The notes under the pieces are model-generated. The model worked only from the letters and a program-made list of their open reading frames with translations. It had not been told where the DNA came from and searched no databases. DNA of 64,000 nucleotides from Macrocystis pyrifera (taxonomy: Eukaryota; Sar; Phaeophyceae; Laminariales; Laminariaceae). Of this stretch, positions 10,621 through 63,649 are shown piece after piece. Location of the stretch: positions 2,293,232-2,357,231 of the forward strand of contig JASSKH010000022.1 of the NCBI GenBank assembly GCA_031763025.1. Reading direction: 5' to 3'. Both the position numbers and the translations under genes were made by a program. Every line of letters begins with the position of its first letter. Positions within the stretch are counted from its first letter, which is position 1.

Positions 10621-10902
10621 GCAGTAGTATAGCCCTCTCGAGTTCCCTCCCCCCCCCCCCCCCCCCCCCCGCTCGTAGCAGCCTGGTCGTTAAATCGGCG
10701 CAAGCTAAAGCCTGTAGTCCGCATCGATTCTCCTGGGCGGGGTTGTCTCTTCCTCCTGTGCCCGCCCGTTGCTGCGACCTCGTGCACACTCTCCTCGTCG
10801 CATTGCATTTAAAAAGCTTAAGAAAACAACAGCTTGGCTCAGCTGTGAGGTCGAGATGTTTCATTGAAACCCACATCTTTCTTTGCGAGCTGTGTGTGTC
10901 AT
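10582..10902. other. Intergenic with 22-bp C-run
   Basis: C-run at 10649-10670. No gene or PC repeat is attached to it. Confidence 0.5.
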
Positions 10903-11010
10903 ATTACGGGGGTCCATAGTTAATGGGACCAAATTTTGTTAATAAAAATACGTACATATATAGGTTTTTATGTATACCATAGGTCCTGTTAACCATGGAC
11001 CCCCGTAATA
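10903..11010 (+). mobile_element. MITE-A copy 13
   Basis: Complete; TA on both sides. Confidence 0.9.
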
Positions 11011-11225: not shown

Positions 11226-11790
11226 AGCTCGAGCTATCACGGGGGTCCATAGTTAACGGGACCAAATTTTGTTAGTAAAAAAAGGTAAATATATAATTTT
11301 TTATGTATACCATAGGTCATATTAACTATGTACCCCCGTAATAGCTCTTTAAGGAGCTAGCTCACCGGTGAGCTACGTGAGCTACGCATGTTTTCCTGGC
11401 TTGAGCTATAGGAGGGTAGCTCATCTGGACATGTTTTCCAAGCTTGAGCTATACAGGATAGGTCATCATCTGCACATATATGTCCAGAGTGAGCTATAGG
11501 AGCTACATGAGCTAGCTCATCTACCCCCGAGATGAGCTATAGGAGCTACAAGAGATACACATGTTTTACCCGGCTTGAGTTATAGGCGGTGGCTCATCTG
11601 CACATGTTTTCGAAGCTTGAGCTATGGACGGTGGCTCATCTGCACATGTCCTCAAACCTTGAGCTATAGGCGGTAGCTCATCTGCACATATTTTCAAAGC
11701 TTGAGCTATAGGCGATAGCTCATCTGCACATGTTTTCAAGGCTTGAGCTATAGGGGATTGATGAGATATTAATAGTTCATGAGCTGTATA
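11226..11790. repeat. 42-bp satellite, left block
   Basis: The unit contains AGCTCATCTGCACATG and CTTGAGCTATAGG; GAGCTA recurs at 11619, 11661, 11703 and 11745, a 42-bp period. Units before 11560 are degenerate. Because 42 is divisible by three, the minus strand stays open and would read a 14-residue repeat (AQALKTCADELPPI). A MITE-A copy interrupts the block's left edge. Confidence 0.8.
11236..11343 (+). mobile_element. MITE-A copy 14, inside satellite
   Basis: Inserted between GAGC-TA and TA-GCTC of the satellite, giving a clean TA duplication. Confidence 0.85.
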
Positions 11791-11834
11791 AGTGACCAAT
11801 ACAAGTGCGCAGCATATAACGATATTTCCACACT

Positions 11835-12393: not shown

Positions 12394-12683
12394 GCACGCC
12401 CACGACCCGTTGTAGCTGCTCTAGCTGGGCTAAGGCCGTAGACCAGGCTGGCGGCGGGCAGCAACCGGATCCATCGATGGATGTGGACCCCACGAACAAC
12501 GTCATCGATGTGGACGAGGACAACGATCAAACCCAGGCCGAACCCAGATTATTCCTATACATACCCACTTGGGAGGGTGGGCTTTTTCGTCTATTTGTAT
12601 TGTGTTAAACGAATGGGAAACGAATGGGTTGCCGAGAAAGAGCTACAACGAGCTGCGTGCATGAGCCATGTTTACGTTATCCG

Positions 12684-13045
12684 GGGGTGAGCTATAAGCG
12701 ATAGCTCATTTGCACATGTTTTCACTGCTTGAGCTATAGGCGGTAGCTCATCTGCACATGTTTTGGAGGCTTGAGCTATCGGTTGTGGCCCATCTGCACA
12801 TGTTTCGAAGGCTTGAGCTATACTCGTAGCAGGTGGTATGTAGCTCATCTGCACATACATGTTTTGAAGGCTTGAGCTATAGAAGATAGCTCATCTGCAC
12901 GCATTTTCTCAGGCCGAGCTATAGGAGCTACATGAGCTACACATGTTTCCCCCGGCTTCAGCTATACCTGGTACTCGGCAGCTCATCTGCACATGTTTTC
13001 GAAGCTTGAGCTATACACGATAGAGGAGCTAGCTCATGAGCTGTC
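12684..13045. repeat. 42-bp satellite, right block
   Basis: Same unit as 11226-11790, with GAGCTA at 12689, 12731, 12773 and 12815, then degenerate units to the start of a SINE-B. The ~900 bp between blocks contains three MITE-A copies and unrelated DNA. Confidence 0.8.
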
Positions 13046-14235: not shown

Positions 14236-14770
14236 TTTTCTTGTTCTTTTTCGGTTTGGTTTTTTCGTTGCTTCTCTTTCTTTATGGTGTATTTTGGTTG
14301 CTGGCGTATGTATGTATGTTGTGTCGGCCGCACCTAGTGCGAAGGCATGGTATTACGTAGGCTATTAATGCATTACGGTGTGTTATCTCTGTGTCGTAGT
14401 CTGTGACCACAGAGCTCGTATCTTTCTAGGGTGAAGAATCAGCACGGACACTGGGCTTGCTGGATGTCGACGAGTAGAAGAACGGTTTAATGTGAAGAAC
14501 ACACACACACACACATTAAACCGTTCTTCTACTCGTCGACATCCAGCAAGCCCAGTGTCCGTGCTGATTCTTCACCCTAGAAAGATACGAGCTCTGTGGT
14601 CACAGACTACGACACAGAGATAACACACCGTAATGCATTAATAGCCTACGAAGTACCATGCATGCCTTCGCACTAGGTGCGGCCGACACAACATACATAC
14701 ATATACGCCAGCAACCGAAATACACCATAAAGAAAGAGAAGCAACGAAGAAACCAAACCGAAAAAGAAAA
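14236..14770. repeat. Large inverted repeat of family F
   Basis: Two arms of about 265 bp, nearly identical near the centre (about 130 bp without a mismatch that I can see), flank a ~19-bp (CA)n spacer centred at 14503. Transcription would give a very long hairpin. Single-arm relatives lie at 40276-40625 and 55200-55306, and a diverged one at 6896. It therefore looks like two copies of a dispersed element joined head to head, or a foldback element. Confidence 0.9.
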
Positions 14771-28150: not shown

Positions 28151-28571
28151 AGAGCCGGTAACGGTGCCCAACGATATTTATTTTTGACTTTTTGTAACCG
28201 TTGGCCCCTTCGTCTTGAAGGATCGGACACCCGAAAAATGGCGAGTTTGCGTGTGAGAGATATGCGCTGCGGCCCACCGGAGACAGAGACCCAGACTGAC
28301 CGAAAAGTACGAAGAACCGGTTGCGCAAATTCTGCCTTCCTGTTCCGTTTACTCACAGCAGTACTGCACCCTCGCACACTCATCAACACAACTATCGAAC
28401 TAGCACACAGCAGCCAGCAGGAGGCGAGCACCACACCTAAGCCCACCGCAACACAAACACCTCGTGCTGCTTGGGAAATTTGGGCAAGCTCCCGTCTATC
28501 TTGGCCGTAAGGTGCCTCTGTCGACCTCGAATCTCCGAGTTCGCTCGTTCCTGCCACACAAGGCACCAACG

Positions 28572-28600
28572 ACAGCAGCAGCAGCAGCAGCAGCAGCAGC
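28572..28600 (+). repeat. (CAG)n in the 5' leader of the ankyrin gene
   Basis: About nine CAG units 44 bp before the ATG. The frame is open through it, so a longer N-terminus with a homopolymer is possible only if translation starts at a non-ATG codon; no in-frame ATG lies upstream. Confidence 0.8.
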
Positions 28601-28643
28601 CGAGAGGAGAGTTGTCACAAGAGCTAGGAAGGAAAAGCAGACA

Positions 28644-31600
28644 ATGGATGCAAGGCAAAAGATGACCTCAGCGTTCGGGCTTCGGGCGATTGACGACCGC
28701 ATGGAGGGAGACATGGCGCGCATCAAGCAAGCCACGATTGCAACGGGCCTGACCGGAGAGCTCACCCCCAGCGCCTCAGAATGCGGAGATGACAACAACG
28801 CCGCTTCCAGCTCAGAGGGAGAGCTCACACGCACGTTGTCCGCCCTGCAACGCCTTTCGGACGAGGAGCGAACCAACTTGAGACGGAAATTGGGGCAACA
28901 GCTGCAGTCTTCTCGGGAACCGGACCACGATAAGTCCAAGGCCCAGGATGATGTCATTGCGGTGGCGGCCGACTCCCCCTACCGCGTTGTTCTGCAAAAA
29001 GCTGTCGTGGAGGGCGATCTCGAGGCCGCGTCGGCCGCCCTTCTGTCTGGCGCCGATCCCAACGAACGTGACGATCTGCGCCACAGCTCTCTGCACTTTG
29101 CGGCAGCGAAAGGAGATATTGGTTGCGTGATGGAGCTCATGAGTTCTGGGGCCCGTGCAAACGTCGCGAACAACGTGAGTTCATCTTTTGCGCTTGCAGC
29201 TTGGACCTCTTTCTTCCTCCCTAGCCAAGGGTGCAGCAGAGTAAGAGCAGTCAGCACGTCGGCGAATCAAGCCAAGTCGCCCCAAAAAATGCGATGTATG
29301 CATGTATATATAGATGGAAAGTGCCTCGATTTGCCGCGCTCGATTTTTCTATCCAACGAGCTTTTTTTGAATAGCATGTACGGGTGTAAGTTTAGCTCGT
29401 CGTGTGTTGTTGTCCGCTCGTTGTCGTGTGAACTATAAGTATGGTAGCGAACGATCCGACCTTGGGATGGAACCCGCAGATGCGTACGTGTCCCAGCAGA
29501 TCCCTAAAGCGCTTGGCCTTGCATTTTTTGGGGCGGCAGGCACCTGTTTGGTGAGCGCCAGCCACCACCACCACCGCCCGAAGCAACTCGCACGTACCAC
29601 CTTTTGCGAGGTTTATCATAGATTCGGGCGGTCGCCGTGGCTTCTTGCTGTTGTCTTCCTTTTTCTCCCGAGACGAGGTCGTGTGTGCGACTGGTTGTGT
29701 GCCGAAATCATATTATTTCTGATTATTGTTGCTTTCTTCTCTCTCGGCGGATTTTTTTCTTATCGATTTGTCACATTGATCGTACGTACTTGCTTGGGTG
29801 TGCTGCTTCCCCGCCGTGAAAGTGTGAATCTTCGTATTTTTCTCCTGCGGCCCAAGCTACGCCATCCAGTGTTGGACCATCATTGCATCAAACAGCAACC
29901 ACCACAACAATAGTGACACTTTTTGCGACGATTTTCTTTTTCGCGTCTCTTTTTCGTCGTTTTTTCCTGTGATCACCGCTTGAGCGCGTTTGTTCGCTAC
30001 TGCTGTGATCATTTTACTCAATAAATGAATGCGACAGCAGCAGCAGCGTGACAGGACTTGGAAGGGTATACAAGTAGGAGTGGCACGCCCGCCTCAGACA
30101 ATTGCTTAAATAGTGAACGAGGCGCGTGATGAGTTCAATAGCCGACTCAAATCTAGTCACTGCATTTGTTCATGAACGCCATCAAGACGCCATCAACATT
30201 TATGATAGCACGCCTTTTTAGGTCTGCGTGGAACTTGATCGTACGTTCGTACGCAACAGGCAAAGTGCACAGCAGATACAACGGAAACTACTGCTGTACA
30301 AGCTATGTTACATGGCTATTATTATAGTAATAGTACGAACAGCTGTGGCAGCCCTCATTCCCAACCCTGCCCTCACGACACTGCTGTCCCCTCTCCGGTG
30401 CTTGCAAAACAAAACAAAACGTTGTTGTACGGCCTTTTCAGGTGGGGTGGAGCCCTCTGCACTACGCTGTATTGGGGGGCCATGTCGCCGCGGTCGAGGC
30501 TTTGCTGTGCGCCGGAGCATACCCATGCTTTCGCGATAACCACCTCATCTCGCCCTTGCACCTGGCTTCCACGCAAGCGGGAGACAGGGTTACTTTTCAA
30601 CGCATTGCGGAGCTGCTCGGTCCCTCGGCCCTCCTAGCTCGAGATGAGGTCAGTGCCTGATGCTTCTGCGATTACTGCGTATTGCTCGTAGGACCTACTG
30701 GGTACAAATGTGCTGCAAGTCGTGGAGCTTCACTCGCAGCAGGTTTCGTGCGTGCTTCGTTTCCCGTTTTTTTTTTTTTTTTCGTCTCCCGGTGCGTGGG
30801 TGCCTCTTCGATCGTTTTTGTCGTCGTTCGTATGATTTTTTTTGAATTTTTCGCCATGATCTCGTTGTTTTTTTTGGGGGGTTTTCGGGAGCTTTTTGAG
30901 TACGCGTCGGGCAGAAGGACCGGACGGCTTTAGTCTAGAGTAGGCAATCGTGCGCATTTAAATTTCTGCCTATAGAGTGCAGCGGTATGTTGTCTCGTGG
31001 GCCACCACCCTACGTGTGTTGGTGACGAAAAAAAGTTGAAGAAGCGTTGAGCACTGTTGATAATAACTGGTCGATGGGGTTCGAAAACAGCCAAATTAGT
31101 AGCTGGCATCTTGATAAAATACTGGGTCGCTGTTGATAAATGTGCTGTGTCTGCTGCTAAACGTGGGGCTGCAGCTGTTGCTGTTTTCGTATTTCGTAAT
31201 TTGATACAGCAGTCAGTACAATCAACTCACTCACTCCATGAAAATATGCGATACACATCAGGAATTAATACATTCATATGTGGGCCCGGCACATCTTGTT
31301 ATTGCCTCAATACATCTGCATGCGTACGCCTATAGTTGCTTGCCGGAAGTTACTTGATAAAACACAACAGCAGCAGCAGCAGTACATGGGCTTTTGCTTT
31401 GTTAACCTTTGATGTCCACTTCGTATCCCTTTTTCCTACGTAAATACCTGGTACCAGGTAATGTTGAAAATTGTCATTATTTTTTTCTTTAATTTTGAAA
31501 TACGTCAGATGTGAGTTTATTTTGTGATGAACTTTTTTGTCTACTGCTGTGTAGTACTGCTGCCCTACAAAAATAACTAATGTTTAGTGCATGTGGCGCA

Positions 31601-34600: not shown

Positions 34601-35528
34601 TTTGTGTTTCACGAATGATGGCAAGTAACTTTTTAGCCCCCCTCGCACTTTCTCTGGCTGGGTACCGTGGGTGACGGTACCTCTTTTTTTCTGTGATTTG
34701 TAGATCACGCCGACCCTGACATACCTCGGTCACACGCCAAGAAACGATTAGGGCTCCTCCCCGTTTCCTCCCTCCTCTCTCGATCAACATGTCATTCCGC
34801 ACCTTGTTGACGCCACGAAAAATTTACCCCTTCCCCCCCCGCCCCCGCACACCTCGTCCTCCCCATCTACGTTCCGTTCGGTCCCTCCCCCCCTACCTTC
34901 CCCATCACCTCGTCCTTTACGAAACCTACAGCTGGAGCAAACGCCTCTTCACGTAGCATCCTCCTGTGGTAACCGCGGCGCCGTGGCCGTCCTCCTCGAC
35001 CTTAATGCCGACCCCGAGGCAACCGACCGCAAAGGCCGCACCCCGGGGCAGTCGTTTCTGCGACAAGTCTCTAAGCGCGCACGCGCCGACATCCGGGCCT
35101 CTCTAGCAGCCGCGGTGCAACGGCGAATTGACGCGGCCGAGGCTGCCGCCGCCGCTGCGAGTTTCGGGGATGGTTCCGTCGCGCCCCCTGCTTTTTTTAT
35201 GTCGGCGTTAGCGTCGTCATTGTCCGGTTCGAGTAATTCCAGCTCGACTTCGTCTGGGGCTGGTGCAACGGCGTCGTCCGTGTTGTCTGCGATGTCCGCG
35301 TCCGGTGACCACTCTTCTCTCGCGGCCGCAGCGGCTGCGGCGGCTGCCTCTACGAAGGTGGTCATGCGGAGAGCGGGATCCACGAACAGCTACGAGGAGG
35401 CCGCTCCGGTTAAGAGGCCTTCCATGCTGAGCCTGCTGCCGGCTTGGGGAGGAAATGGGCGCGGTGCCGGAGGGGTCAGCGAGAAGGGAGGGGAAACCTC
35501 CTTCCGAACCGCATTTGCCGTGTTGTAG
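28644..35528 (+). CDS. Ankyrin-repeat protein, three exons
   Basis: Predicted CDS join(28644..29174, 30442..30648, 34932..35528), 444 residues. All junctions are phase 0, with donors GTGAGT and GTCAGT and acceptors TTTTCAG and CCTACAG. Residues 1-110 are polar, with a helical LSALQRLSDEERTNLRRKL segment. About five ankyrin repeats follow: 111-143, 146-177, 178-209 (GWSPLHYAVLGGHVAAVEAL), 210-246 (irregular) and 247-279 (QTPLHVASSCG). The tail (about 285-444) has an Ala-rich helix, a Ser-rich stretch and another poly-Ala. Ankyrin domains mediate protein binding; no catalytic domain, signal peptide or membrane segment is seen, so the role is unknown. The ATG is the first in frame, in the context ACAATGG. 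Exon 1 could be preceded by a non-coding exon. Exons are inferred from frame and repeat continuity, not transcripts. Confidence 0.8.
29175..30441 (+). other. Intron 1 of the ankyrin gene
   Basis: 1267 bp, GTGAGT to TTTTCAG. No transposon copy is recognised. Reading through from exon 1 would give an unrelated tail and a stop at 29438. Confidence 0.75.
32058..32402 (-). mobile_element. SINE-B copy 5, in intron 2
   Basis: Antisense to the gene. A T-run of about 15 is inserted within the tRNA-like head (~32370), and a second T-run expansion lies at 32180. Confidence 0.88.
34179..34287 (-). mobile_element. MITE-A copy 19, in intron 2
   Basis: Complete but diverged (GGGCGTAGTAGATAAGACC). It is the only copy between 15.3 and 40.0 kb. 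Confidence 0.8.
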
Positions 35529-40275: not shown

Positions 40276-40680
40276 TATGTGTGTGTGTTCTTCACATCAA
40301 ACCGTTCTCCTACCCGTCGACATCCAGCAAGCCCAGTGTCCGTGCTGATTCTTCACCCTAGAAAGATACGAGCTCTGTGGTCACAGACTACGACACATAG
40401 ATAACACACCGTAATTAATGCATTAATAGCCTATACGCAATACCATACCTTCTCACTAGGTGCGGCCGACACAACATACATACATACGCCAGCAACCAGA
40501 ATACACCGTGAAGACAGAGAAAAAGCAACGAACAAACCAAACCGAAAAAGACAAGGAGAAGAATCCTAAATAAATAAATAAAATGGGCAGCCAAAGCTCA
40601 GACACATAATAATAATACTTACCCCGAGCATGATCCAAAATGGACGTGCAACGGCGAAGAAACGGGAAGGAAAAAGGAAA
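40276..40680 (-). repeat. F repeat, longest single copy
   Basis: Starts (GT)n TTCTTCACATCAAACCG and continues ~400 bp, matching the complement of 14100-14500. It shows that the F element extends beyond the palindrome arms and exists as a solo unit. Confidence 0.8.
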
Positions 40681-42957: not shown

Positions 42958-43217
42958 GTATAAATGGTGCCTCTGGTAGTCTGTATCATTCCCCAACCAC
43001 GCAGTAGCCGTTTGCGTCCCGACCTTGATCCTAACACGTTGCTGAAATCATCACCAACTACTATTCTCTTCGTATATGTTATATATATATACGTCAATTT
43101 TTCCTTCGACGTCTCGAGATGGTTATTCGATCGCTCTGTCTGGTCTGCTCCACTTCGAGGTAACAAAGGCAGCAGGAAAAGTAGTCGTAGTAGCTGCAGT
43201 AGCGGTACTTCGTATAG

Positions 43218-43678
<461 letters not shown>

Positions 43679-43881
43679 TACCTGGCATAGAGCTGTAGTA
43701 CAACACCATTGGCCCTCCCGTGAAAACAAGCTGAAAGAATAAGATGTTAGGCTAACATCCTTTTACCCTTTTTCTGCCGGAGGGAGCGAGAAGGGGGTAC
43801 TCGTAGCAGTTTGAAAAAAAAGTACAGACGGCGAGCGCCTAGGCTCCACATCTATACATTTTTTTCAAATAAAAAAAAGCT

Positions 43882-44317: not shown

Positions 44318-44449
44318 GGTATGGCGAGCTTGGATTTCTCGAAATCTCTGTTTTCTTACCAGAATAACTTCCATCGACCAGCAGCAGCTGTTGTGTGTGT
44401 CTACGAGGATCGCGGGTGAAAGAGGTGAAGCTTCCGTCATCATTGCGCC

Positions 44450-44538
44450 CCCCCCCCCCCCCCCCCCGCCTCGAAAGGGATGCGTGGTCAATGGTCAAAC
44501 GACTAAGGCAAGCAACAAATGAGTACGCGGCCCCCCCC

Positions 44539-47466: not shown

Positions 47467-47577
47467 GAAGGACCATCAGCTCCTTTAGGGGTGGCGGCTT
47501 TTAATTTATGGGCTCAATCACTGAGAAGCCCAACATCTTACAAAACCCGGCCAATATTTCTTTGCGCTATTACGGGG

Positions 47578-47664
47578 GACCATAGTAAATAGGACCAAAA
47601 ATTGTTAGTAAAACTAGGTAAATATATAGGTTTTTATGTATACCATAGGTCCTATTAACTATGG
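47578..47664 (+). mobile_element. MITE-A copy 28, 3'-truncated
   Basis: Lost after ACTATGG. Confidence 0.8.
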
Positions 47665-48025
47665 ATATACTATTGAAAGCCCCGCTATACCAACCGGCAG
47701 TAGCTGCTCACCTGAGGAGCTCAACCTGTCGCCAAGTATTGCCTCACAGAAGGCAAAATAAATAAAGTGATACCCCTACAGATACCGTGGGATGAGTCAC
47801 AAGGTGGGAAAAGAAGTACCTGGTGGTGGTGCTCGATGTGGAATTTGTAAAAGATGTAGGCGGGGGGGGGGGCAGGGGGTCTTTGAGGAGAAGGAAAGGA
47901 CAAAAACAAAACATGCAATGAAGGAATACCACCCCCGCGCTCGATGCCTGGCGGCACGCAGCAGCTCAAATTTCTTAAAAAAAAAACAAGCAAACGTGCC
48001 GGTTTAGCCTTCTTGTTCATACCCC
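47665..48025. other. Intergenic, nothing recognised
   Basis: No gene or shared repeat. Confidence 0.4.
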
Positions 48026-48320
48026 ACCCACGAGGCCGTTACATGGTAAAAGCCCATTGCTGTCTCTGGAAGTGGCCACACCAGAAATTAAGTCAATTCA
48101 TTGAAGCTGTCATCCATACGCAAGAAAATCCGCCTCAAGAGCGGTTCTTAGTAGGATGCAGCTCACCCTTCATGCGACTCGCCGCGCTTGGTGCAAGCAA
48201 TGTCTGCCTGCCTGGTCGGCGAAAACCCGACGTGCCCCGTCCCGGCATTGTAGGGATGCGAGGTTCTATGGTCATACGACTACGGCCATGCATGATCATG
48301 AGTACCCCCCCCCCCCCCCC
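48026..48320 (+). mobile_element. PC repeat, 5'-truncated
   Basis: Starts CACGAGGCCGTTACATGG, lacks the GGACACCTCACGGC block, and ends ATCATGAGTAC plus 15 C. Confidence 0.82.
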
Positions 48321-48487: not shown

Positions 48488-49911
48488 GTGGGGGGCGGGA
48501 CTCATTTGTTGCTTGCCTTAGTCATGCATTCGACCATTGACCACGCATTCCTTTCGAGACGGAGCACCGTTTCCTACTCCTATTTGGAGACACCTGCAAC
48601 AGTCGGCGCTCATTGCGTTGTTTCCATGTATGACATAGAATCGTTTCGCTCATCTTATGCCCTCCCTGTTTCGCTGCCTATCGCCACCTTCTATCTCCTA
48701 GGATAGCGATCGATCGTTTTCCTCGCTGCTACCTGGTTCGCCAGACTCCTCCATGTCACACTCGTCTATTTCCACCCATCTCTTCTATCACATCCCGTTC
48801 CTCCTTGCACATTTCACATTCTCCTACTATTTGAGTTCTGCTCTCTATCGCTTTGCCACACGGGCACATCTGTGCATCTGCTTCCTCCTCCTCCTCCCGG
48901 CTATTGGTGTACGAGCGCCTCTTTCTTCTCTCTGGCAGGTCTATTAATAGGTCCCCTACACGAAATCGCAGTTTCAACTTTTTCGGGGCGTCCATTGGGC
49001 CGTCCGTGCAAATACGGTTTCATTCCTATTTCTTCGCTTAGCCCCCCGTATATCTCTACATGTTTCTCCGATTGCACCTTGTTTCTTAGCGCTAGCCTTT
49101 TCCCTTCTTTCTATCCTGTCTTCTACTTCTGCCTTGTACCTTCCAAACGTCTCTGCGGACATCATCTCTTCTTGGTTTCCCCCTATATCCTTCCATACTT
49201 TCTTTACTACGACATCCCACCATATTCCAGCTCGCCCTTTTGTTACTTTCTCCCATACAGCTCTATCAACTGCGACCGGCAACCTCTTCGTTAGGCATGT
49301 ATCTTACTTTCTATCGCCTTATCAACCTTCTCGTGCCTCTATTTAATTTCAGTGGGTACATTTCCGGTGCTGCTCTTATTTGCTGTGTTACTAGTCTTAC
49401 CTTGAGCATCTCGTAGTTTTTTAGCTGCTGCGATCTGTACTGTTTGCAACTTTTTTTTACGTACTTCCCGTGCCCTTCCCATACTTCTCCTGCGTATTCT
49501 AGCTTTGGTACTATCACATTCATCAGCATCCATCTCTTGGTCCTAGTGTCACAGGGCGAGTCTGTTAGGACCGTATCCATCTTGCCTATACCTGTGCTTT
49601 GCCCTTCTTTCCTATTATTTTTGCTATATGTGTATCCCAAAAACACTATTTTGATATCTCTATGCCAAGGTATGTATACTGGTCTACGATCGGCAACTCA
49701 ACTTCTCCCCACTTCCAACTGAAATTTACCGGGCCCACTTTATCTTCGCTACATACAACCTAGTTCTACTGTGCATTTCTTTGCGTTCGCCGTCCCCGTC
49801 CATTTCCTCGTGTATTCTAGCACCTTCTCTATTTGTTTCTACTATCCTTTCGGATGGTTCTGATATCCCCACGAGGTCATCCGTAAACATCAATCCCGAC
49901 ACCATGCGCGC
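48488..49911 (-). pseudogene. Decayed, 5'-truncated LINE (reverse transcriptase C-terminal half)
   Basis: On the minus strand, open segments in shifting frames give: the RT active-site motif FTDD in GLMFTDDLVGIS (49876-49887); a YADD-downstream/thumb region with MNVIVPKLEYAGEVWEG (~49480-49520) and a MYPLK segment; a Trp-rich linker; a DLPERRKR segment; then a Cys motif CPCG...GECEMC (48806-48866); and the 3' end with GGCAAGCAACAAATGAGT and a short C-rich tail. The order matches non-LTR retrotransposon ORF2. At least three frameshifts, no endonuclease domain and a start inside RT make it dead. The 5' break abuts the C-run of a PC repeat on the same strand. Confidence 0.85.
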
Positions 49912-50160
49912 GGGGGGGTACTCAATAGCATGCATGGCCGTAGTGACCCTCGCATCCCTAAAATGCCGGGACGGAGCACGTCGGGTTTTCACCGACCGGG
50001 CAGACGTTGCTTGCACCAAGCGCGAAGCGCCGTGAGGTGTTCGGCGAGTCGCATGAAGGGTGAACTGCATCCTACTACCAACCGCTTCAGAGGCGGACTT
50101 TCTTGCATATGGATGACAGCATCAATGAATTGATCTAATTTCTGGTGTGCCCACTTTCCG
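49911..50160 (-). mobile_element. PC repeat, truncated
   Basis: Same strand as the LINE it abuts. C tail only seven long here. Contains the GGCGCTTCGCGC hairpin. Confidence 0.8.
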
Positions 50161-50162
50161 CG

Positions 50163-50223
50163 CGGGGGGGGGGGGGGGGTTGATAGACCTGCACACTCAT
50201 GGCGTCGGGAGGGGGGGCAGGAT

Positions 50224-50261
<38 letters not shown>

Positions 50262-50376
50262 CGGGGGGTGTACTATTTTTTCATGCATCGCCGTAATCGT
50301 ATGACCATAGACCCTCGCATCTCTACAATGCCGCGACGGAGCACGTCGGGTTTTCACCGACCGGGCAGATATTGCT
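50163..50376 (-). mobile_element. PC repeat fragment with long G-runs
   Basis: G-runs at 50163-50180 and 50224-50261 (38 G). A PC 3' end covers 50262-50376. Confidence 0.7.
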
Positions 50377-50379
50377 TGG

Positions 50380-50870
50380 CAGGAGGGGTACGAACGTCAT
50401 GCATGGCCATGGTCGAAAATATATGACCGTAGACTCTTCCCTTCCTGGAACGCCTGGGCGGAGCACGTCGGGTTTTGATCGACGCCACGCAGAAATTGTT
50501 GCTTGCACCAAGCGCGAAGCGCCGCGAGGTGTTCGGCGAGTCGCATGAACGGTGAGCTACATCCTACTAAGAACCGCCGCTTGTGAGGCGGACTTTCACA
50601 TGGATGACAACTTCAACGGGTTAATCTATGTTCCGGTGTGGCCATTCCCAGAGACAGCAATGGGGGGGGGGTACTATGTGAATGCCTCGTGGGCGCCTCG
50701 CCATATACACACTAAGCGATACGGCCATCCTCCTTGTGCGGAGTTAAGGTTCTCCAACCCGCACAACTGATCTGTAACTCGTTCGCCAGCTGTGACCGAC
50801 CGCTAAAAAAAAAAAAAAAAAAAAACGGTACCTTTGTCTAGCTCAGGTAGTGAGCGGCGTGTTTTACAGG
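50380..50870 (-). mobile_element. PC repeat, near full length
   Basis: Begins next to GGGGTACGAACGTCATGC and extends to the A-run and TCTAGCTCAGGTAGTGAGCG at 50840-50855. Confidence 0.8.
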
Positions 50871-51390: not shown

Positions 51391-51588
51391 CTCTCTCTAC
51401 TCCACCCCGTGTGAGCGGTGAGTCAACGCAGCGGTGAGCGTTGGCCGTTTAGAATCACCGACACCTCCGGAAGATAGCTGTAGCGACACCTTTAAAAAAA
51501 AATAACAACAATCATGGGACATCGTACAAAAGATTTACAGGTGCCGCAGTTTTCCCTGGTGGATGGTGGGTGGATGGTGGATCGGGAG

Positions 51589-51695
51589 GGGGGGGGGGGT
51601 GTACTCGATAGGAGAGATGTACTCGATCTCATGCATGGCCGTAGTCGTATGACCATAGACCCTCGCATCCCTACAATGCCGGGACGGAGCATGGA
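51589..51695 (-). mobile_element. PC repeat fragment
   Basis: Last ~95 bp only; breaks after GGGACGGAGCATG into GGATCGGGAGGGGGGG, which duplicates the flank at 51579. Confidence 0.75.
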
Positions 51696-51934
51696 TCGGG
51701 AGGGGGGGGAGAGAGAGCGTTTTTGTAGCACACAAGATTATTTCTGTTGGCAACAGTCGGGAACGGGTATCTTGTTGGGAAGAAAGGGGCAAGCTGACGG
51801 GCAAACTTGCAACCCTTCCGCCCCCCGCCCCGCCCCCCACCAAGCGGTACTTCAACGTAAAAAACGACCATCCTACCAGTAGTGCATATATATCACCAGG
51901 TTATCAATGTATCCTGGAATACAATACAAGGTAC

Positions 51935-60959: not shown

Positions 60960-61238
60960 TACCTTGGGGTTCAAGCGTCATCTGCCGCATCCGAACACGT
61001 CTTTCCCGTAGGTGGCCTTATTGTTACCCAAGAAGCGCAGTCGTTTGGGCGGGGGGGGGGGACATATAATTTTTCCTTTCTGAAAGCATGTAAGCACAAA
61101 CCCTGGCAGAAGGTTCTTCCGCTGTATTCTGAATGGACTGCTACCCATCACTCAGTCAATTTTAGGGGTCCGTCTGGCTACTGCTCTCAGCGCAGCGAAG
61201 GATGGCGGCAATCTAGCATGCATTACTTCAAGAGATAT
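60960..61238. other. Intergenic, nothing recognised
   Basis: G-run at 61051. No gene. Confidence 0.4.
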
Positions 61239-61348
61239 TCTTACGGGGGGCCATAGTAAGTAGGACCAAATATTGTTGGTAAAAATAGGTAAATATATAG
61301 GTTTTTATGTATACCATAGGTCCTGTTAACTGTGGACCCCCGTAATAA
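61239..61348 (+). mobile_element. MITE-A copy 35
   Basis: Complete, near consensus. Confidence 0.9.
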
Positions 61349-61994: not shown

Positions 61995-62448
61995 ACGATA
62001 AACATACACCACTCTGTCCTTAAATATTAGTACCTTTTGTATATTTGATATGCAGTACAAAAAATTCCTTTCACAGGGAACGCGTGGAATACCCTTTTCT
62101 TTGTATACGAAGTATACATGCGATAAATAACGGGATGTGGTCTGTTTACTAGTAGACCGAATGTACGTACATATCGTATCTGACTACGTATACACTACTT
62201 TTTACGCTGTCCGAGCAATGTGTTACGCGATAAATAACCTCCTTTTACTGCTGTACAGCAGCAGCAGCAGTACTGCTGTACCGTCCTCGAAGATATATCC
62301 ATCTCACTCTAGCCCCAAGCAATAATACGTCACCAAGAACCAGCAAGTCCCAACAAAAGTGAGGTTAATACAAAAGGACGACATATATATATATATGCTT
62401 GCCGGCACAACAAGAAGAAATAAACGCCACAAAACCAGCCTGTACGGG
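61995..62448. other. Intergenic; partial MITE-L at the left
   Basis: ACACCACTCTGTCC at 62008 is a MITE-L left end without a clear partner. ACTGCTGTA at 62247 and 62272. Confidence 0.45.
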
Positions 62449-62569
62449 CGGGGGGTTGTACTCATTATCGTGCATGGCCGTAGTCGTATGACCATAGGCC
62501 CTCGCACCCCTACAATGCCGGGACGGAACACGTCGGGTTTTCACCGACCAGGCAGTACGGGCGGGGGGT

Positions 62570-62600
<31 letters not shown>
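62449..62600 (-). mobile_element. PC repeat fragment
   Basis: PC 3' end at 62449-62556, then a ~30-bp G-run (62570-62600). ACGGGCGGGGGG is duplicated at both borders. Confidence 0.75.

Positions 62601-63560: not shown

Positions 63561-63649
<89 letters not shown>
63561..63649. repeat. 89-bp uninterrupted C homopolymer
   Basis: Longest homopolymer in the window. No PC or LINE terminus is attached on its left (TTGACAGACA), unlike most other C-runs here. Length in the source DNA may differ because such runs are hard to sequence. Confidence 0.9.

Follow-up and report, generated by a model that had tools for sequence, protein, structure and literature searches.

In the brown alga Ectocarpus, the RTE-X LINEs RTEX-1/RTEX-2_Ec32 occur together with a non-autonomous element of ~600 bp, RTEX-N1_Ec32 (PMC12477816). 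The RTE-clade LINEs of Lepidoptera encode an endonuclease (EN) and a reverse transcriptase (RT), have a 3' UTR that is extremely short and consists of simple repeats, and are present in many 3' partial copies (PMC2887409). Insertions of Bov-B, another RTE-clade LINE, are rarely flanked by targets that resemble its 3' repeat and follow a T-stretch/TA signature (PMC13295347). Non-LTR elements specific for microsatellites have been described, such as Togen, (TG)n, and some HERO families; Togen and HERO belong to groups with a restriction-like endonuclease, and target-specific families in general are found mostly in early-branched groups, Tx1 and R1 (PMC4640811). The 3' repeats tabulated for a set of green algal RTEX elements include no (C)n (PMC3747384).

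Here we describe a LINE and a non-coding element of ~507 nt, termed PC, from a window of 64,000 nucleotides of the genome of the kelp Macrocystis pyrifera. The two very probably insert preferentially, and in one orientation, into C-tracts that are already present. As far as published descriptions can be compared, the pair resembles that of Ectocarpus: in both brown algae an abundant LINE is accompanied by a shorter partner that is conserved at the LINE 3' end and has a 5' part of unknown origin, while the accessible text on the Ectocarpus elements mentions no poly-C end or target (PMC12477816). The kelp LINE has in common with the Lepidoptera LINEs, as described in the accessible text, the EN and RT, the very short simple-repeat 3' UTR and the many 3' partial copies; slippage was proposed there as the source of the repeat (PMC2887409), whereas in the kelp the repeat appears to be the landing site as well. 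As in Bov-B, where the available description has an RTE-clade LINE and a SINE with a common 3' end that both terminate in repeats (PMC13295347), LINE and partner end alike, but the kelp targets match the 3' repeat and no upstream signature was seen at 29 sites. Preferential insertion into a simple repeat is also known from Togen and HERO, again judging from the accessible text (PMC4640811); unlike in these elements, the kelp endonuclease matches Exo_endo_phos, and the LINE targets a mononucleotide run, as does its SINE-like partner.

No poly-C-targeting or poly-C-ended LINE or SINE was met among the titles and abstract openings searched, mainly of open-access papers, and a poly-C target for a LINE and its SINE-like partner appears to be new relative to the known microsatellite-specific elements. 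If true, this would add a mononucleotide target, in an APE-type, RTE-like lineage, to those elements, and would account for part of the poly-C tracts in the Macrocystis pyrifera genome. The finding is relevant to the question of why elements of this kind terminate in simple repeats. Since the target equals the 3' repeat in a large fraction of the LINE and PC copies, and the order of events is seen at one empty site, the idea of pairing between repeat and target is directly testable.

Four long LINE loci (L039–L042) were read for coding content. A reverse transcriptase domain (RVT_1, E 1.6e-31) was matched in L039 and an APE-type endonuclease domain (Exo_endo_phos, E 1.1e-10) in L040, with frames broken in every long copy read. 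The best PDB sequence matches of the RT are LINE-1 ORF2p and R2 proteins; the endonuclease piece of L040 matched no solved structure by sequence. The predicted RT is of the LINE type, as expected of a non-LTR retrotransposon. The frame terminates in ..TKASNK-TGA within the 3' tail that the LINE has in common with PC (AAC AAA TGA GTACG-Cn), so a LINE 3' UTR is practically absent. Its arrangement, ..KASNK-TGA, GTAC(G) and C's, corresponds to the very short simple-repeat 3' UTR of the RTE group. The element looks RTE-like, and the name RTE-X would rest on its likeness to the Ectocarpus LINE/partner pair. Among the 120 of 207 protein matches listed, most of them nameless, the named close relatives are from Ectocarpus, which provides the nearest, from Sphacelaria and from two bacterial MAG records; the relatives P0011 and P0163 also terminate in KASNK. 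The two MAG records, P0013 and P0121 (Hyphomicrobiales and Parasphingorhabdus), contain pieces 90% and 81% identical to the LINE, which are probably algal DNA in bacterial bins. No exact match to the LINE end was found in viral contig and genome contig collections, which may omit this or very near genomes.

The LINE and PC end in the same sequence, ATGAGTAC(G/A), followed by C's. The initial annotation had noticed this common ending in the window, and it is well borne out: ATGAGTACNCCCCCC, allowing up to two mismatches, is matched 27 times in the 64 kb, compared to 0.65 expected and a maximum of 3 across 100 shuffles. Genome-wide (537,376,219 bases in 223 contigs), the exact PC end, CATGATNATGAGTAC-C7, has 1,046 matches (521+525), and the exact LINE end, AAGGCAAGCAACAAATGAGTAC, for which C's were not required, has 3,856 (1936+1920); the reversed control gave 0 in both searches. 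The earlier estimates of about 20 PC copies and nine or so LINE ends were roughly correct, with 17 PC and 9 LINE rows obtained by BLAST in the window, two of the latter being 25-nt poly-C matches and not copies; six LINE ends are present at up to three mismatches.

The ends were studied in a sample of copies reaching the 3' end (86 LINE, 77 PC), assembled from BLAST chains in the window and fetched loci. A run of at least six C's (C6+) lies within 30 nt 3' of the end in 73/86 LINE and 68/77 PC copies, and the C's begin at, or one base past, GAGTAC in most of them. The three bases after GAGTAC are GCC (48/86) or CCC (19/86) in the commonest LINE classes, and ATC (26/77), ACC (19/77) or CCC (18/77) in those of PC. 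The ATC class represents a dimer tail, ATCGAGTAC-ATCTCTCCT-ATCGAGTAC-A-Cn, where GAGTAC again adjoins the C's. Of the 93 C7+ runs on both strands of the window, 14 come immediately after GAGTA(C) or are separated from it by a single base, and 38 of the 70 C8+ runs adjoin no recognised element end; many C-runs in the window are thus not visible tails.

The similarity between the two families extends beyond the terminal motif. The last 66 nt of the LINE align with the last 74 nt of PC, which rules out that ATGAGTAC is all they have in common, and the description of the families as otherwise unrelated has to be abandoned. The predicted folds of the two tails are also similar, with a closing stem GUGCUC/GAGUAC and hairpins GUCYC/GGGAU and UGGUC/GACUA; compared to shuffled tails, folding is not significant (z −1.5 for LINE and −0.9 for PC). 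Because a 3' tail of 66–74 nt with a similar predicted fold is common to both, the two are a LINE and its SINE-like partner. The sequences support such a pairing through the common tail, as had been suspected from a much shorter stretch, and PC has both the 3' tail and the 3' repeat in common with its partner, as a SINE would. Searches of the 64-kb window found no tRNA, and no Rfam family reached its gathering score, which gave no origin for the PC head; Rfam matches at two loci, L001 and L060, are all below the gathering scores of the families. The 5' truncations of the LINE cluster, with 25/86 copies starting 61–68 nt before the 3' end, where the predicted closing stem has its 5' base (e.g. 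the copy starting at 44466). Reverse transcription may often stop as it exits the folded tail, which would explain this cluster. The 77 PC copies have no comparable truncation cluster.

C-runs are found at the other end of the copies as well. Among truncated copies, 55/85 LINE and 29/48 PC copies have a C6+ run in the 30 nt on their 5' side, compared to G6+ in 0 and 0, A6+ in 1 and 1, and T6+ in 1 and 0; of 30-mers taken at random from the same DNA, 3.7% contain C6+ and 3.4% G6+. Nearly full-length PC copies have C6+ in the 45 nt on their 5' side in 26 cases out of 29. For the LINE, the proportion is 22/28 at identities of at least 95%, 13/21 at 90–95%, 20/33 at 80–90% and 0/3 below, indicating that the 5' run is commoner among young copies; the PC values, 5/9, 11/16 and 13/23 by falling identity, are without clear trend. 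Throughout the genome, C8 occurs up to 11 nt before CCGTCTCGAAAGGGAT, a LINE truncation point, at least 577 times (577 on the reverse strand, once per copy among the matches listed; 2425 on the forward strand, where overlapping starts were counted), versus 0 and 0 for G8. At 29 sites, the sequence 5' of the run showed no base preference, and no T-stretch of the kind described for Bov-B was seen upstream. The absence of a 5' C6+ run from 30/85 LINE and 19/48 PC truncated copies, and from 6/28 of the youngest LINEs, counts against a target model. The specificity, as judged from the young LINE copies and the empty site described below, is a strong preference and not exclusive.

The origin of the 5' runs was followed in the 84 truncated copies that have one. 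By script, 30 runs lie after the end of another copy, 8 after a tail-like motif and 46 after neither; by eye, at least two of these 46 (L004, minus strand; ~5.5 kb in the window) come after decayed PC tails, and another (L062, plus strand) comes after a MITE-like end. The first two groups are what would be expected if the C's were a true poly-C tail, gained in RNA or cDNA regardless of the target, with all 5' runs being tails of older elements; the extra C's at two sites (see below) would fit as well. Yet 46 of the 84 runs have no flagged element end before them, although for three or more of the 46 this is wrong or doubtful, which rejects older tails as the source of all 5' runs. The true-tail explanation also conflicts with an empty site at L064, and we consider it very improbable.

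At L064, a 190-nt LINE copy (99%) is inserted in a host repeat that weakly matches a chromodomain (E 0.031, which does not reach the Pfam cut-off). A query of 137 bases, consisting of both flanks and the duplication once, was used to find copies of the host repeat without the insertion. Of 242 candidates, 40 were scored, and every one of these runs across the joined site, covering at least bases 1–136. Among 20 fetched uninserted copies, 16 have C8 (C8-TTCCA), one each has C9, C10 and C11, and one reads CCCCGCCC. The occupied copy reads C8-TTCCACG, followed by LINE..ATGAGTAC and then by G-C13-TTCCACG-TCACC. Since the uninserted copies carry C8, the run is older than the LINE insertion at this locus, contrary to its being simply a tail. 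The target-site duplication consists of TTCCACG preceded by up to 8 C's, and five or more C's are new.

The same C8 in uninserted copies is at odds with the 5' run having been created during insertion, where C's would be joined to the 5' end of the new copy without a template or by a template jump, e.g. to another RNA's C-tail. Arrays of element, C-run and element in the window would fit such a process, as would the lack of a duplication at many copies, but exact duplications contain the run together with unrelated bases past it, and this origin is hardly probable. Lengths of long C-runs from long-read assemblies are unreliable, which could raise suspicion of an assembly artefact or homopolymer drift. 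However, the bias is strand-specific (C versus G, 55 to 0, 29 to 0, and at least 577 to 0) and C8 recurs in 16/20 separate empty sites, so an artefact is extremely improbable.

Three PC copies in the window lie between exact C-containing repeats of 18, 15 and 11 nt (Table 1). The copy at 51.6 kb has C8 on its 5' side and C12 on its 3' side. The initial annotation had asked whether target duplications flank the C-run; the duplications found take in the end of the run. At score ≥6, they were detected in 22/161 copies versus 7.25 by chance (maximum 11, 20 shuffles), and by a stricter test in 9/115 versus 2.3 by chance (maximum 7), a figure that includes two tandem artefacts at L044 among the nine copies. 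Duplications are thus detectable in a minority of copies, which counts against the explanation we favor; those consisting purely of C's are invisible to these tests. When 20 more short copies, picked for a C8 5' flank, were read by eye, a few seemed duplicated (e.g. L093 and L095) and many gave nothing clear.

The 3' run is longer than the 5' run in 30, shorter in 12 and equal in 5 of 47 LINE copies (p 0.008); a hand-picked subset of 22 LINE pairs gave 14 longer versus 8 shorter (p 0.29), and 14 PC copies gave 5 longer, 7 shorter and 2 equal. A gain of C's is demonstrated at single sites only, from 8 to 13 at L064 and from 8 to 12 at 51.6 kb, and is compatible with slippage or with a C-stretch at the 3' end of the RNA. 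The initial annotation took a poly-C tail to imply unusual priming or slippage. This survives for the C's added at these two sites, whereas the run itself is mainly a pre-existing target tract, in view of the empty site and the C-containing duplications.

Tracts of poly-G/poly-C may break or open, for example through a G-quadruplex, and reverse transcriptase could then prime on the G-run laid bare, with no need for its own endonuclease to make a specific nick. Such capture of breaks would agree with the C-run as the sole target feature found and with the small proportion of detectable duplications. The clean duplications of 11–18 nt and that of L064 look like staggered nicks instead, and an endonuclease domain exists in one copy; we regard break capture as unlikely.

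Building on the orientation-specific 5' runs, the one empty-site locus, the C-containing duplications of a minority of copies and the LINE frame that ends in the common tail, we propose, with considerable confidence, that the non-LTR retrotransposon (APE-type endonuclease and reverse transcriptase) and the ~507-nt PC insert preferentially, and in one orientation, into pre-existing C-tracts. In the model that fits best, the G-run of the tract would prime reverse transcription on C's at the 3' end of the RNA. The endonuclease would nick the G-strand within or at the edge of a C-tract, and the freed ...GGG-3' end would pair with C's located behind the folded RNA tail. When reverse transcription is target-primed, the first nick, and with it the 3' end of the primer, lies at the left edge of the duplication. 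Here this edge falls within the C-run; the primer therefore has G's at its end, which are able to pair with an RNA whose tail precedes C's. Because C's follow the source copies, read-through transcripts would carry them. Reverse transcription would begin at the paired G's, occasional slippage adding C's, and the other strand would be cut a few bases past the run. Each insertion would leave C-runs on both sides as new targets, which would account for the nested arrays in the window. The 3' repeat might thereby act as a guide, the C-stretch at the end of the folded RNA tail picking G-run targets and the insertions making or lengthening them, such that the pair builds its own poly-C habitat; we put this forward tentatively, at somewhat less than even chances.

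The features of the window discussed here are collected in Table 1. The LINE copy in its third row, 48500–49903, is a poor example of a poly-C end, reading ATGAGT-CCCGCCCCCC. The PC copy immediately 5' of it, is placed between a C16 run and the LINE 5' end, an arrangement that we interpret as one C-tract having been hit by two insertions in succession; it could instead have arisen by a template jump.

Table 1. Element copies and target duplications in the window, with positions counted from its first letter.
Positions	Strand	Feature	Evidence and remarks
44466..44526	+	LINE 3' fragment (97%) beginning at stem base	BLAST; 5' flank is C20 run 44448-44467
48025..48305	+	PC copy	BLAST; followed by C16 run 48305-48320
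48500..49903	-	5'-truncated LINE copy, RT and C-terminal part	BLAST chain, 83% to reference piece; translation with stops; 3' end at 48500
49907..49917	-	Target duplication CCCCCCGCGCG, element-3' copy	Exact + strand repeat CGCGCGGGGGG at 49907-49917 and 50159-50169
49918..50158	-	PC copy immediately 5' of LINE	BLAST; 11-nt direct repeat on both sides
50159..50169	-	Target duplication CCCCCCGCGCG, element-5' copy	At end of C16 run 50164-50179
50278..50378	-	PC fragment	BLAST
50408..50869	-	Diverged PC copy (75%), reference positions 50-492	BLAST
51578..51595	-	18-nt target duplication CCCCCCCCTCCCGATCCA, element-3' copy	Exact repeat; four extra C's at 51596-51599
51600..51691	-	Short PC copy, dimer tail	BLAST; C12 run 51588-51599 after its 3' end
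51692..51709	-	18-nt target duplication CCCCCCCCTCCCGATCCA, element-5' copy with C8 run	Exact repeat
62442..62456	-	15-nt target duplication ACCCCCCGCCCGTAC, element-3' copy	Exact repeat
62457..62554	-	PC copy (92%) between 15-nt duplications	BLAST
62555..62569	-	15-nt target duplication ACCCCCCGCCCGTAC, element-5' copy	Exact repeat; adjoins C31 run 62570-62600

Other repeats were observed in the window. A repeat family of ~325 nt with an internal CCCTTCT-C7 (13060–13384, 26416–26618, 41382–41557, 43978–44302, 46300–46471 and 58948–59123) offers a natural test of the frequency of LINE and PC insertion at C7. An isolated C89 run at 63561–63649 adjoins no recognised element end. A MITE-like short repeat, TTACGGGGG(A/T)CCATAGT...ACTATGG(A/T)CCCCCGTAA, is found in both orientations (e.g. 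10898–10969, 11231–11302, 47564–47635 and 61235–61306), and the repeat families D5, D6, D9–D11, D15, D18 and D19 are pieces of it. A near-perfect hairpin at 14310–14700 has one pair of arms 150 nt long (99%) and another 40 nt long (100%), and a 97% complementary relative is located 26 kb away, as a related arm at 40278–40415 (I18). A 42-nt unit is repeated in tandem at 11527–11794 and 12639–12948 (D12 and D16), and a long TAG/CTA trinucleotide tract at ~43075–43690 gives open frames of one residue. Ankyrin repeats were matched in the open frames 28404–29435 and 34752–35525, which are perhaps exons of one gene.
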